From Acinetobacter brisouii CIP 110357 (GTDB taxonomy: Bacteria > Pseudomonadota > Gammaproteobacteria > Pseudomonadales > Moraxellaceae), in the NCBI RefSeq assembly GCF_000488275.1, contig NZ_KI530762.1, positions 1,020,800 through 1,084,799 of the forward strand: 64,000 bases of DNA. The letters run 5' to 3'. The translations under genes were made by a program, and so were the position numbers. Within the stretch, counting starts at the first letter, position 1, and each line of letters begins with the position of its first letter. Below, piece after piece: positions 27,818 to 32,200 of the stretch. The notes below the pieces were generated by a model. The model did no database searches. It was not told where the DNA came from and saw only the letters and a list, made by a program, of their open reading frames with translations.

Positions 27818-28961
27818 TTAACGATAGCTGATTTTCTCAGGTTTTGGCGCTTCATGACCTTCCAAATAATGATCTGTCATTTTCACTGTGGCGTGTCCAG
27901 CCAGTGCTTGCGCGTACTTTTTGCCATACTTCTGCGTAATGTTATAAATCCCTAAAGCACGTAAATCATGCAGCGATGGACGCTGATTTGGTTCAAGATG
28001 ATCGTATGCACCCGACAGGTCACGGTACTTTTTAAACTGTTTTGTCAGGTGGTCTTCGGTGACTGCAAACGCATGCAGTTTGACGTTGCGGTTGTGTTCG
28101 GTAATGCGCTCTGGTCGGGTGGCAATCAGAAATGGGCAGCGCAGTTTCATTGCATGTTCGATACACTCTAAAACCACATCCCGCAGTTCAGGGTGCATGT
28201 CCACTTCAATAAACACAGGTTTGTCATAATTCAGAGATTTATGCTGCAACACGGTCATGGTGTTGTCTTTGATGTTAATGCTGGAGCGTTCCATCACCAC
28301 CAGATCGGCGCGCCGTTGAATCGAATGCATCGCCAAATCTATTGCAAGTTTTAACCAGGGCGGGCAGATTGCCTTAATGGCTTCAACAGATTCATTTGAA
28401 TGTCGGGTACGGTTTTTTTCTGGGCGAATCGGCTTTAACGTTTTCTCGGCAATATTGTCTGCAGCCCAGCCATTTGCCACAAAATACTTCCAGATGTCGA
28501 TAAGCTGAGAACGGTGTTTTTCTGCCTGAAAGTCGGTTTGTCGTTTTAAAAATTCAGACACCATGAGCAGGGTAATGTCACTGCAGTAGTGCTGGTCCCA
28601 CAGGTCATGATATATTTCCAATATTCGCCGTGATAATTTCCAGTGTGTTTTTGGCGTATTTCTTTTTGGGTAAGTGGATATTTTCGTATTCGGTAAGTGC
28701 CTGACCAAAGGTTGGCATGGTGGACTGTTTTTGTGCTTTTTCGACTGATGACAAGATTTTAGACACAATGTCTGGGTTACGCTCCAGTACGGCGTTTAGC
28801 GCCTGTGCTGCCTGAATGGCTTCGGTTTTGTCTTTGCCTAAAGATTTGCGTTGTCCGTTTGGTAGTAGGTAGCGGTAATACACCGTTCCATTTGCTTTTT
28901 TATCAATTTCAACGTGGGGCGGTAAGTCCTGATACCCCACGCCACGACCACGAGGTGTCAT
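27818..28961 (-). pseudogene. Tyrosine recombinase integrase of element 2, split by a frameshift
   Basis: The N-terminal part (28961 to about 28608) begins MTPRGRGVGYQDLPP, with a substrate-binding start (VYYRYLLPNGQRKSLG) and SAM-like domain, and ends early at NTLEIITANIGNIS. The rest continues in another frame from about 28620 to 27818. It holds the catalytic set: Arg in QRRADLV, HDLR, GHATV and the Tyr in DHYLEG. Restoring two bases in the ATAT tract near 28610-28617 would give one protein of about 380 aa. As written the element lacks a functional integrase, unless this is a sequencing error or translational frameshift. Confidence 0.8.
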
Positions 28962-28962
28962 G

Positions 28963-29229
28963 TTAAATCTCCGCTAAAATTCGGTCTGCAATGCTGTTGC
29001 CTGTTTTGGGTGGGGATTTTAGTTCGATTTTTTGCACTTCGGTTGAGTAAAACAGGGGTGCGCCCCAAGAGGTACACTCGACATACCACTGTGTCCCGAT
29101 TTTCTTGCCGCTTAACCAGCCACGTTTTATATGGCTGATGAGGGTGTCACGGCAGGGGCGGGATTCTTCGTCTTGCCAGTAGCGCTGTGCAAAGACAGTG
29201 AGTTTGAGGCGTTGAATGTTGGAGCTCAT
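28963..29229 (-). CDS. Excisionase-like small DNA-binding protein
   Basis: 88 aa from ATG 29229, behind a clear GGAGGT. LTVFAQRYWQDEESRPCRDTLISHIKRGWLSGKKIGTQWYV matches small winged-helix Xis or AlpA-type proteins, where the site after the turn (GKKIGTQWYV) contacts DNA (parts quoted separately for length). It sits immediately upstream of the integrase and overlaps the preceding small membrane protein gene, so both probably come from the promoter at about 29499-29526. Confidence 0.65.
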   Translation of the reverse strand: MSSNIQRLKLTVFAQRYWQDEESRPCRDTLISHIKRGWLSGKKIGTQWYVECTSWGAPLFYSTEVQKIELKSPPKTGNSIADRILAEI

Positions 29230-29426
29230 ACCGTACCTCCAAGCATATACACCACTCCTGTAATGACTGCATAGCACAGCGTACCGATACTGGCAAACAG
29301 GGCAAAGTCTTTGGTATTGGCCAATACCACTTTGAGGCGGTTTGGGCGTTGTTCTTGTGGGGTGGGGTGTTGGTAGAGTCGTGCGGAGGTTGCGGGCATT
29401 TGACTCGGAATGTGTTTTTGTTTCAT
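29226..29426 (-). CDS. Small membrane protein upstream of xis
   Basis: 66 aa from ATG 29426. Charged N-terminal half, then one hydrophobic segment ALFASIGTLCYAVITGVVYML near the C-terminus. The stop overlaps the xis ATG. Not recognised; it is the first gene of the xis-int operon and is placed right behind an operator-like palindrome. Confidence 0.55.
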   Translation of the reverse strand: MKQKHIPSQMPATSARLYQHPTPQEQRPNRLKVVLANTKDFALFASIGTLCYAVITGVVYMLGGTV

Positions 29427-29570: not shown

Positions 29571-29594
29571 AAAAAACCCACCAACGGTGGGTTT
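29571..29594 (-). terminator. Terminator of the kinase operon
   Basis: Read on the minus strand: AAACCCACC, loop GTT, GGTGGGTTT, then T6. It stops the leftward transcript of the HipA-like pair and isolates it from the xis operon. Confidence 0.75.
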
Positions 29595-29617
29595 CTGAAA
29601 CCTATTTTCTTTTATGG

Positions 29618-30484
29618 TTATGCAACTAGGCTATCCCATTCATAAACTTCTTTTGCTAGATTTGTAAGGTCTGTAGAACTATACAACTTAATTCCTTGGG
29701 GTTGTAATGTGCTGTCAAGTTTATCTATCACTTCATCAATTTGATCGATTCTTGATTGCTTTAAATGTTTTAAGTTTTCTTCGGATGGCTTAAGTAAAAA
29801 TAATGAAGGCTCTCTTTTTAATTCATCAGAAGCTGTTCTGAGATCATTAATAGCTTGAAGGTAGTCGGTTTTAATTCTTGATGGATCTGCAAATACAACA
29901 CTAGCCCAATTACCAATAGTTTTATTATGCCTAGGACGTAAAGGAACATGAATATTTTGTCTATTTATCTGTATAACTCTTGAAGGAGGTATAATTTTTT
30001 CAAAATTAATTCCAGCATGATCTTGACGTTTTAATTCATCTATCAAATTGTTGCTTAGTTGTTGCAAGTTAAATGAATGAAATCCACTAATATTACGTTT
30101 TTTGATATCTCTAGCTTTACCCAAAGGAACGGCTATATCAAATAAATGATCAATTAGCTTACTACCACTTTTTCCTCGGATAAATCCACGGTTATCGAAA
30201 ACCAATTGTTTAGATACGCTTGGACATCCTTCATAGACTAACATTTCAGCTAGTTTTGTTATGCGTTGTGCATGAAATTTCATATCTTCATTAAACATGC
30301 ATACGAAACGGTCAAAACTTTCGCCATCTATAGTTCTGATAAAAATTTCATTATCAGTTTTTAAGACCACACCCAAATTAAAGCATTCTTTAGTAGTTAA
30401 ATCAGGCATCCATTGTATCGTCATCCATTCCCCAGATAGAGTTGGGTTGGAATTCTCTTTTGAAAGGCGTTCAAGTAAAGACAT
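29618..30484 (-). CDS. DUF3037-like partner of the HipA-like kinase
   Basis: 288 aa. The start, SGEWMTIQWMPDLTTKECFNLG followed by VVLKTDNEIFIRTID (parts of one segment, residues 17-52), has the pattern of DUF3037 proteins, in which a short strand is followed by a conserved E.fN.GV. The rest is not recognised and ends in helices. It lies one base downstream of the kinase gene, a pairing I know for HipA_2-type kinases. It may be the kinase's substrate, adaptor or antitoxin; none is proven. Confidence 0.55.
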   Translation of the reverse strand: MSLLERLSKENSNPTLSGEWMTIQWMPDLTTKECFNLGVVLKTDNEIFIRTIDGESFDRFVCMFNEDMKFHAQRITKLAEMLVYEGCPSVSKQLVFDNRGFIRGKSGSKLIDHLFDIAVPLGKARDIKKRNISGFHSFNLQQLSNNLIDELKRQDHAGINFEKIIPPSRVIQINRQNIHVPLRPRHNKTIGNWASVVFADPSRIKTDYLQAINDLRTASDELKREPSLFLLKPSEENLKHLKQSRIDQIDEVIDKLDSTLQPQGIKLYSSTDLTNLAKEVYEWDSLVA

Positions 30485-30485
30485 A

Positions 30486-31379
30486 TCAAGCCACCAATCC
30501 TAATCTGTTAGCAAATACGGTTGTTGATTGAATAGAACGATAATGTAAAAAATCTTTTAAATATTCTATATATTTTGGTTGATCATTCGTTGGGATATTG
30601 GAAACTTCTAATAAATTTTTCCACCAAGTGGTCAGTATATCTTGCACTGAAATAAAAGCATCTTTGTGCTTATTGGCTGCTTCAACAGCTAGATGTTTTG
30701 TGGTGAATTTTGTCTGTGTTTTTACAGATGGTTGATCATTCAATATATTTAATAGTTTATTATTAAAAGCTAAAGTTTTATCCAAAGCCAATAAGTCAGA
30801 AAACCAATTCACACTTCCTAAAATTTCACCATGATCAATAATTCCCATATTTCCATCTCCGATCATTACAACATTTCCGATATTTCGATCGTCATTTGCT
30901 ATAAAGTCATCAAATGCAATAATATTTGGTAGGTTCTTTTGATTGCAAACTAAAGAGTAAGCTTGAATTAACTTTGCAATAGCATTATCTGGATCATTTT
31001 TGAATAAGTTTTCAAAATCATTTAAATGAAAAATACCTTTAACACTTTGTCCGCATTCAGTTGTAACCCAAGCCCAAACTGTTTCATTGCTATTAAGATC
31101 TACAACATCAGAAAAATCTTTATAAAATAATTTACTAAGTGGTATGAGTGCTGCATTATCGGGCTGTAATATTCCTAAAGCTTTTCCAAGAGTAAAGCCT
31201 GTAAGCTCATTACATAATTTTCTTATGCGGTCGTGAGTTGGATAAACTTTTATATAACATTTTTTTATTGTTCCATCATCCCATTCAATACTTGCAAGTC
31301 TAGTAACACCCATAGCGCCACCCGTGACTATTTCATGAGAAGCTAGGTAAGAATTCTCTGTTAGTACATTTATAGACAT
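30486..31379 (-). CDS. HipA-like Ser/Thr kinase
   Basis: 297 aa, one-domain form without the HipB-binding N-terminus of classical HipA. The catalytic part reads AFDDFIANDDRNIGNVVMIG (about residues 154-173; catalytic Asp in NDDR, metal-binding Asn in GN) followed by GIIDHGEILGS. Upstream, GGAMGVTRLASIEW and KKCYIKVYP give the nucleotide loop and the Lys. It is the first gene of a two-gene minus-strand unit between the repressor and the xis operon, the usual place for defence or toxin cargo in such elements. No HipB-like antitoxin is adjacent. Confidence 0.7.
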   Translation of the reverse strand: MSINVLTENSYLASHEIVTGGAMGVTRLASIEWDDGTIKKCYIKVYPTHDRIRKLCNELTGFTLGKALGILQPDNAALIPLSKLFYKDFSDVVDLNSNETVWAWVTTECGQSVKGIFHLNDFENLFKNDPDNAIAKLIQAYSLVCNQKNLPNIIAFDDFIANDDRNIGNVVMIGDGNMGIIDHGEILGSVNWFSDLLALDKTLAFNNKLLNILNDQPSVKTQTKFTTKHLAVEAANKHKDAFISVQDILTTWWKNLLEVSNIPTNDQPKYIEYLKDFLHYRSIQSTTVFANRLGLVA

Positions 31380-31423: not shown

Positions 31424-32092
31424 CTAAACATCCCTATAAAGCCCCACAACTTTACCAACCAAACGACAGCCTTCTTTTAAGTCCATCATTTTTTCGTGCC
31501 AGTCAGGGTTTAAGGGTTTTAAAACCATCCCATTACTTTCAACAATTAGCTTTTTAAAGGTAGCTTCCACTTCATTGTCACAAACAACAATAACGAGATC
31601 GCCAGTTTTTAAATCACTGAGCTGAAAGTCAGGGTTTACATAAATTTTGTCATTTGGTCTGAAGTCGGGAAGCATCGACTCGCCAACCACCACCAAGCCA
31701 TAACCATTCTTCCCGCATTTAGGATTGGGTGGTAACCATTCGTCAAACTGTGTTCCTGTTGGAGCACTGTCCATCGTTGTCCATGTTCCTGCCTGTACCC
31801 ATGAGATCACTGGCACTAAACGTCCTGCAATCGGGAATTGATCAGCTACATTCGCATCTAATTTATTATTTTGTTCAGAATCATGTGGTACATCTAGCCA
31901 ACCATGCGGCTTTCCAAAAGCATCTTCAATTTCACGGGCAACTTTATTGCCAATTCCTTTGATAGGGTTTGTGCCTGCAAACTGGCTTGTTTGTGACTGA
32001 CCTTTATTAATTTTGTCAGCAAAATTTGAAACGCCACCTACTTGTTCAACTAATAAGCGAGTGTTGTTATATCTAATTGTTTTGCTGTCCAT
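31424..32092 (-). CDS. LexA/CI-type self-cleaving repressor
   Basis: 222 aa from ATG 32092 (behind AGGAAAA). N-terminal HTH (about residues 10-45) and C-terminal peptidase S24 domain: cleavage site WVQAG-T, catalytic Ser in GESMLPDFRPND and catalytic Lys in EATFKKLI. RecA stimulates autocleavage in this family, so DNA damage should induce the element. Operators TTACC-N5-GGTAA lie at 32143-32157, 32183-32197 and 29502-29516. An upstream start at 32116 is possible. Confidence 0.85.
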   Translation of the reverse strand: MDSKTIRYNNTRLLVEQVGGVSNFADKINKGQSQTSQFAGTNPIKGIGNKVAREIEDAFGKPHGWLDVPHDSEQNNKLDANVADQFPIAGRLVPVISWVQAGTWTTMDSAPTGTQFDEWLPPNPKCGKNGYGLVVVGESMLPDFRPNDKIYVNPDFQLSDLKTGDLVIVVCDNEVEATFKKLIVESNGMVLKPLNPDWHEKMMDLKEGCRLVGKVVGLYRDV

Positions 32093-32130: not shown

Positions 32131-32200
32131 ATTGTAGAGTTATCACCTAAAAGGTAAACAAGAAAAAAGGTTGTATTTATCTTTACCAAAAAGGTAATAT
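32131..32200. promoter_or_regulatory. Divergent repressor/cro control region with two operators
   Basis: Rightward promoter: TTGTAT (32171-32176), 18-base spacer, TAATAT (32195-32200), with operator TTACC-AAAAA-GGTAA at 32183-32197. Leftward promoter: TTTACC (32158-32153), 16-base spacer, TACAAT (32136-32131), with operator TCACC-TAAAA-GGTAA at 32143-32157 over the -35. A weaker fourth match, TAACC-AAAAT-GGTAA, lies at 32448-32462 at the end of cro. Confidence 0.7.

Follow-up and report, generated by a model that had tools for sequence, protein, structure and literature searches.

Within the 64-kb window (the whole stretch of DNA analysed here), two adjacent genes, termed A and B, lay directly downstream of a CI-type repressor gene (cI) in a prophage, all three on the same strand (Table 1). 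Only one base separated the stop codon of A from the ATG of B, while 44 bases, in which no stable hairpin was found, separated the stop codon of cI from the ATG of A. The cassette had a G+C content of 32.2%, compared with 41-49% in its neighbours, as for acquired cargo. Scans of the flanking genes with Pfam and PHROG recognised neither HipB nor HipS, the latter being sought by family scans only; upstream was the S24 repressor and downstream ORF79, which had no Pfam match and a single PHROG match, phrog_29933.

Table 1 Features of the A-B locus, numbered from the first letter of the window
Feature	Position	Strand	Remarks
CI operator-like palindrome TTACCAAAAAGGTAA	32183-32197		In front of cI
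CI operator-like palindrome TCACCTAAAAGGTAA	32143-32157		In front of cI
Candidate cI-A-B promoter	32131-32158	-	TTTACC-16-TACAAT; overlaps operator; weak
cI, CI-type S24 repressor	31424-32089	-	Co-directional with A; assigned by Pfam and PHROG
A, HipA/CtkA/HipT-fold kinase	30486-31379	-	297 aa, complete ORF
B, DUF3037-like protein	29618-30484	-	288 aa, complete ORF; N-half (residues ~15-135) DUF3037; C-half (residues ~140-288) predicted ERCC4/PD-(D/E)XK-like fold without conserved acidic residues
Intrinsic terminator	29572-29596	-	Just 3' of B; GC-rich stem, GTT loop, T run
CI operator-like palindrome TTACCTAAAAGGTAA	29502-29516		Between A-B terminator and ORF79/xis-position/int operon
Small gene in xis position	28963-29277	-	Downstream border of the slot
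Integrase, first ORF	28605-28961	-	Split gene, region 27818-28961
Integrase, second ORF	27818-28768	-	In a different frame from the first ORF

The first-pass annotation had described a HipA-type kinase with intact NDDR and IDHG motifs, a DUF3037-like partner one base behind it, the lack of a HipB and a terminator belonging to the pair, and all of these descriptions held. Its placement of the pair between repressor and xis was borne out on the repressor side; the gene next to int, taken for xis, matched phrog_33468 only, a family without functional annotation.

When searched singly, A matched Pfam HipA_2 at E = 0.021 and B matched DUF3037 at E = 0.0087, both under the Pfam cut-off. With relatives included, 23 of 27 A members matched HipA_2 (best E = 2.5e-8) and 16 of 25 B members matched DUF3037 (best E = 1.5e-5) at E up to 1. 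Both family labels are therefore weak by single-sequence search but hold with relatives. Each protein also matched a PHROG family over its full length (A, PHROG 11186, E = 9.6e-101; B, PHROG 14695, E = 4.8e-132), neither family having a functional annotation. HNH_repeat, Exo70_N, PfkB and similar weak Pfam matches among B members were taken as noise. Sequence profiles of the PDB yielded no credible relative of A (best E = 0.42) and nothing for B at E up to 10.

The NDDR motif of A occupied residues 162-165 and IDHG residues 181-184. Across an alignment of 27 A sequences (three of them, L014, L054 and L073, partial), E58, N162, D164, R165, N166, G168, N169 and I181-D182-H183-G184 were invariant, and K44 was kept in at least 90%. 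We take K44 to be the kinase lysine, E58 the helix-C glutamate, D164 and N169 (in NDDRNIGN) the catalytic Asp and Asn, and D182 (in IDHG) the metal-binding Asp. The predicted model of A (pLDDT 85, pTM 0.87) had its best solved match in Helicobacter pylori CtkA (Z 15.5, 4.2 Å over 237 residues), and further matches in PI4KIIalpha (Z 12.1), HipA (Z 10.3-11.7) and Legionella HipT (Z 11.2). Because PI3/PI4 kinases scored about level with HipA (Z 10-12), the substrate of A cannot be read from its fold alone. Alignment of the model to Escherichia coli HipA covered residues 122-437, and as it begins at about residue 122, A would lack the N-terminal part of HipA.

The model of B was less well predicted (pLDDT 79, pTM 0.56). 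Its C-half matched FANCM (Z 10.0, 2.9 Å over 116 residues), MUS81-EME1 (Z 9.4), Hef, XPF and ERCC1 (Z 8.9), and more weakly CdiA-CT (Z 7.9) and BsoBI (Z 7.8); best Z scores of 7-8 are common without relationship, so the assignment to an ERCC4/PD-(D/E)XK-like fold is suggestive, not secure. In 25 sequences, no column of residues 140-288 held D or E in at least 80%, and a single column, position 152, was conserved as K/R/H (24 of 25), which makes an active nuclease role unlikely. A nuclease-like fold without conserved acidic residues suggests that B may bind or sense DNA. A viral fold library returned for B two unnamed phage proteins (E = 2.0e-11 and 1.4e-9, TM 0.3-0.4, identity 12-13%), besides weaker rows.

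Of 32 distinct A homologues, 31 had B immediately downstream on the same strand. This corresponds to 71 of 72 locus rows, not counting the window and with many rows sharing a contig or genome, and the sole exception, L066, ended at a contig edge. One locus, L081, had B without a recognised A; the 360 bases remaining to its contig edge were 99.7% identical to the 3' end of an A gene but differed from it by one base in length, so this copy of A may be frame-broken. A profile search seeded with B across 390 genomes of the order found four loci at E up to 1e-5, all with A upstream, of which two (the window's genome and G146) had already been reached through A. Distances among A and among B proteins correlated over 31 pairs (r = 0.978, with none of 2,000 permutations as high), as expected of genes moving together. 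Against the nearest relative, dN/dS was ~0.07 for A (0.055/0.766) and ~0.04 for B (0.043/1.125).

At E up to 1e-8, A was matched in 12 of 175 Acinetobacter genomes. More distant pairs, with the linkage checked, came from Vibrio, Oceanospirillales, Mariprofundus and Marinobacterium records, and remote pairs from seven records of enterobacterial plasmids of 3.5-6.4 kb and from 2 of 5,426 E. coli genomes. Searching 50,697 phage records with A and B by tblastn gave no match at E up to 1e-5, and blastn of the region found similarity to the repressor only, in four records. The context survey that the first-pass annotation had proposed was thus carried out in part: B followed A almost throughout, and many loci lay in prophage immunity regions or beside defence genes, an association seen without a formal enrichment test. 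A housekeeping link, which it had named as one outcome that would speak against its reading, is unlikely for a gene present in so few genomes of the genus and with a partner found in just 4 of the 390 genomes of the order sample.

The hairpin behind B had a folding energy of -18.9 kcal/mol (z -4.6); a consensus terminator scan did not list it, and its T run lies partly within the stem. A sigma-70 scan found 8 sites against a mean of 13.3 in shuffled sequences, fewer than the shuffles, and was uninformative. Gene order, the 44-base gap, the lack of a hairpin before A and the strong terminator after B suggest that A and B are transcribed with cI, probably from the repressor-maintenance promoter of the dormant prophage. 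Palindromes like TTACCTAAAAGGTAA occurred three times in the window at up to one mismatch, where 0.07 were expected and none of 100 shuffles contained three. Five prophages shared the CI type (the window, L030, L099, L100 and L103; CI 76-80% identical to the window's), and all five had the far-side site at up to one mismatch, as well as sites next to cI at up to two mismatches. Neither of the two prophages with another CI, L097 and L098, had a site at up to one mismatch (0 of 2). We infer that the cro side and the int side are each under CI control, which would leave the dormant prophage with cI-A-B as its transcript. Since A and B follow cI in the same direction and the three genes are bracketed by operators, expression in the lysogen is likely.

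Repressor-side proteins were also scanned at nine other loci and comprised eight S24 repressors and one HTH-only protein (L034). Small genes stood between repressor and A in L002, L031, L038, L039 and L041; a ~100-aa gene (starting MIATLNK) lay between repressor and cargo in these five and in L101 and L104. Short lipoprotein-like ORFs (111-239 aa) flanked A-B in L002, L036, L037 and L038 and, judged by eye only, might be exclusion lipoproteins. The integrase of the window was split, and L097 and L098 carried a single 380-aa integrase ORF, so the window copy is either broken or affected by a sequencing error.

The gene in xis position occurred in 10 of 175 genomes, and eight of the nine loci besides the window were fetched, with G118 (a 42% match) excluded. 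Slot genes of L097-L100 were scanned against PADLOC and Pfam, and BLAST was used to compare the slot genes of L103 and L104 with those of the four. The slot of L098 held IetA/IetS (IetAS) and that of L099 an ABC-3C set with an LmuB-like ATPase, MC5 and CTD9, to which the L103 set was homologous (49-55% identical). L097 and L100 contained proteins without a recognised family, one of which L100 shared with L104. Three of the eight slots thus held a set known to PADLOC or Pfam or a homologue of such a set, with L101 and L102 in the denominator and the genes of the other six examined. The related proteins of L100 (341 aa, L100:7126-8148(+)) and L104 (343 aa, L104:7748-8776(-)) were 31% identical; the former was unmatched in PADLOC and Pfam at E up to 0.01, and both are candidate defence genes. 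The L097 slot encoded a 160-aa protein (L097:8561-9040(+)) in a prophage whose cII and rep were 98-100% identical to the window's and whose repressor was different. In L030, an Acinetobacter chengduensis locus found through A, PD-Lambda-1 (T5orf172/DUF4041; L030:2274-3953(+), E = 1.8e-108) lay beside A-B in the opposite direction, within the same operator-bracketed slot.

Outside this slot, five of the six loci tested had a PADLOC match among their neighbours, which supports a defence association without being an enrichment test, as the neighbour genes were picked by eye as defence-looking. Type I restriction adjoined A-B in L033 and Gabija GajA and GajB in L044; L040 had a type I methyltransferase and a weak PtuB-like HNH protein nearby, L043 an AriA-like ATPase, and L034 a SIR2/pAgo-like protein ~3 kb away. 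No defence match was found among the neighbour genes scanned in L035. Among the Vibrio, Oceanospirillales, Mariprofundus and Marinobacterium loci, this examination covered the two Vibrio loci. The tiny plasmids with a remote pair, among them L028 (a 3.5-kb Salmonella plasmid, pair at L028:369-2056) and L118, came from Salmonella, E. coli, Klebsiella and Raoultella, and a VbhA-family antitoxin was the sole other annotated gene on the two records opened. L029 (NZ_CP077849.1), a 3.66-Mb Acinetobacter baumannii record named as a plasmid, is chromosome-sized, and its A-B pair stood behind an S24-type repressor like that of L003.

The first-pass annotation knew of no assigned function for a HipA-like/DUF3037 pairing. 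One has in fact been published: the pairing is the PADLOC candidate PDC-M66 and has been validated as DS-6/HipAD and in the Retron-Sda1 locus (PMC13092281, PMC12548924). According to PMC12548924, Retron-Sda1 is co-located with HipA-like and DUF3037 genes; deletion of HipA abolished defence against Bas51, neither the RT nor the ncRNA was required, and deleting the DUF3037 gene proved toxic. Its authors noted the PDC-M66 assignment of the pair and its tie to DS-6. PMC13092281 describes DS-6, renamed HipAD, as a HipA-related kinase with a protein containing DUF3037 and DUF1829, reports that a catalytic mutant of DS-6A lost defence, and presents AlphaFold3 predictions with kinase-partner contacts and weaker DNA contacts; it credits HipAD to Brenes and Laub (2025, Cell Host Microbe), in E. 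coli prophages.

Our comparison with DS-6/HipAD ran solely through PADLOC models and PDC-M66B-type loci. Best PADLOC hits of the window proteins were weak (A to PDC-M66A of the PDLC04766/PDLC04767 pair, E = 0.0019; B to PDC-M66B, E = 0.0063), and with a threshold of E up to 0.01, 14 of 27 A members hit PDC-M66A and 14 of 25 B members hit PDC-M66B (best 3e-6). Searching 369 genomes of the class with PDC-M66B (E up to 1e-5) gave nine loci, with no match in the window's own genome. Of these nine loci, five yielded an ORF to the window-family kinase profile (weakly, E = 0.0012 to 3.5e-6) and three to the B profile (weakly, E = 1.2e-4 to 6.2e-6), and two further upstream kinase ORFs (L114, L117) were seen in the PDC-M66B-type A alignment. 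The comparison alignments comprised five B ORFs and six A ORFs, excluding those where no clean ORF was seen (B of L109, L115, L116 and L117; A of L109, L110 and L112). With hhalign, the A family aligned to the kinases of these loci at 96.4% probability (E = 1.1e-9, 133 columns including the NxDR and IDH motifs) and the B family to their partners at 80.6% (E = 1.3e-5, 101 columns, N-terminal DUF3037 half only), against 0.1% for a mismatched control. On these profile alignments, the window pair is a remote, divergent relative of the PDC-M66/HipAD kind. The C-half of B was left unaligned by hhalign, although by eye its sequence pattern looks alike in A8, and none of the families listed at E up to 1 for the 25 B members was DUF1829.

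We therefore consider it probable that A-B is a prophage-borne, two-gene toxin and neutraliser of the HipAD/DS-6/PDC-M66 kind that protects the lysogen from other phages. Of the functions suspected in the first-pass annotation, phage defence or toxin-antitoxin activity is retained, and pure exclusion without toxin-antitoxin character has become less likely. In the dormant prophage, B would bind and silence the kinase, a step supported for relatives and extended here to the window pair. Infection by another phage would disturb B and release A, which would then phosphorylate an essential component of host or phage, so that growth stops and the infection is aborted. HipA targets glutamyl-tRNA synthetase (PMC13092281) and HipT tryptophanyl-tRNA synthetase, which suggests, by analogy, a target in translation for A. 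The C-half of B may bind DNA for autoregulation or sensing. A more specific form, in which B is a two-part sensor-neutraliser whose DUF3037 half holds the kinase and whose dead XPF/FANCM/ERCC1-like C-half recognises a DNA structure of phage replication or recombination and so releases it, seems rather unlikely to us. If true, HipAD-type systems would be kinase toxins triggered by DNA structure, and the function of DUF3037 would gain a testable basis.

Several of these observations would also suit an addiction module, in which A is a toxin and B its antitoxin, cells that lose the prophage are poisoned, and protection from phages is secondary or absent. The pair sits within a mobile element, its remote relatives include those on the small enterobacterial plasmids, for which the two opened records annotate a single further gene, and removal of DUF3037 is toxic in a relative (PMC12548924). 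We judge this explanation unlikely, as sister prophages fill the same slot with PADLOC-listed defence systems, other A-B copies have type I restriction, Gabija and other systems as neighbours, and defence has been shown for two relatives (PMC12548924, PMC13092281).

The location of A-B in the immunity region, next to cI and between CI operators, could instead point to a regulator of the prophage life cycle, with the kinase modifying CI, host or phage proteins to tune lysogeny or induction and B as its cofactor. Such a role is very improbable for a pair that is coupled to several divergent S24 repressors, occurs also on plasmids and at other loci without a recognised adjacent repressor, and is absent from L097 despite the near-identity of its cII and rep. 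Least probable of the readings weighed is that B is a DNA-binding autorepressor and A a non-toxic kinase that, for example, modifies incoming phage proteins, giving exclusion without host shut-off. The resemblance of the modelled C-half of B to DNA-repair nuclease-fold proteins such as FANCM and ERCC1, and the DNA contact of DS-6B suggested by AlphaFold3 (PMC13092281), would agree with this, but the toxicity of DUF3037 gene deletion in a relative (PMC12548924) points to a toxic kinase.

Read as a toxin and neutraliser, the window pair adds a divergent prophage branch to a defence system that was validated in 2025-26; this branch is missed at Pfam curated cut-offs and gives only weak matches to PADLOC models. 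The predicted dead-nuclease fold in the DUF3037 partner offers a concrete lead on how such systems may sense phages. The cI-linked, operator-bracketed cargo slot of Acinetobacter prophages holds several known defence systems together with genes worth testing.

Among known systems, the type II toxin-antitoxin HipBA shares its kinase fold with A, whose active site is presumably laid out like that of HipA, going by our residue assignment. However, A is without the HipA N-terminal part, no HipB adjoins it, and B matches no HipB family; membership of A-B in HipBA was rejected on the lack of HipB and of that N-terminal part. HipT of HipBST is, like A, a short single-domain kinase, matched by the A model as given above, but the partner of A is DUF3037-like. 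In phage lambda, the rexAB defence genes lie downstream of cI and are expressed in the lysogen. The same holds for the bstA defence gene, likewise downstream of a cI repressor (PMC8585504). A-B resembles rexAB and bstA in position, being co-directional with cI, directly downstream of it and terminator-ended. PDC-M66 and the Retron-Sda1 pair consist of the same two genes, with profile homology for A and the N-half of B, and differ in that the single-sequence matches of the window proteins are weak. HipAD is reportedly prophage-borne, going by the title of the Brenes and Laub work. Like A-B, HipAD/DS-6 joins a HipA-related kinase to a DUF3037 protein without HipB, and a catalytic residue of the DS-6 kinase is needed for defence. 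DS-6B has a DUF1829 undetected in the window B family, and the sequence relation is remote, running through PDC-M66-type loci; unlike HipAD/DS-6, the window pair occupies a cI-linked slot of Acinetobacter prophages.
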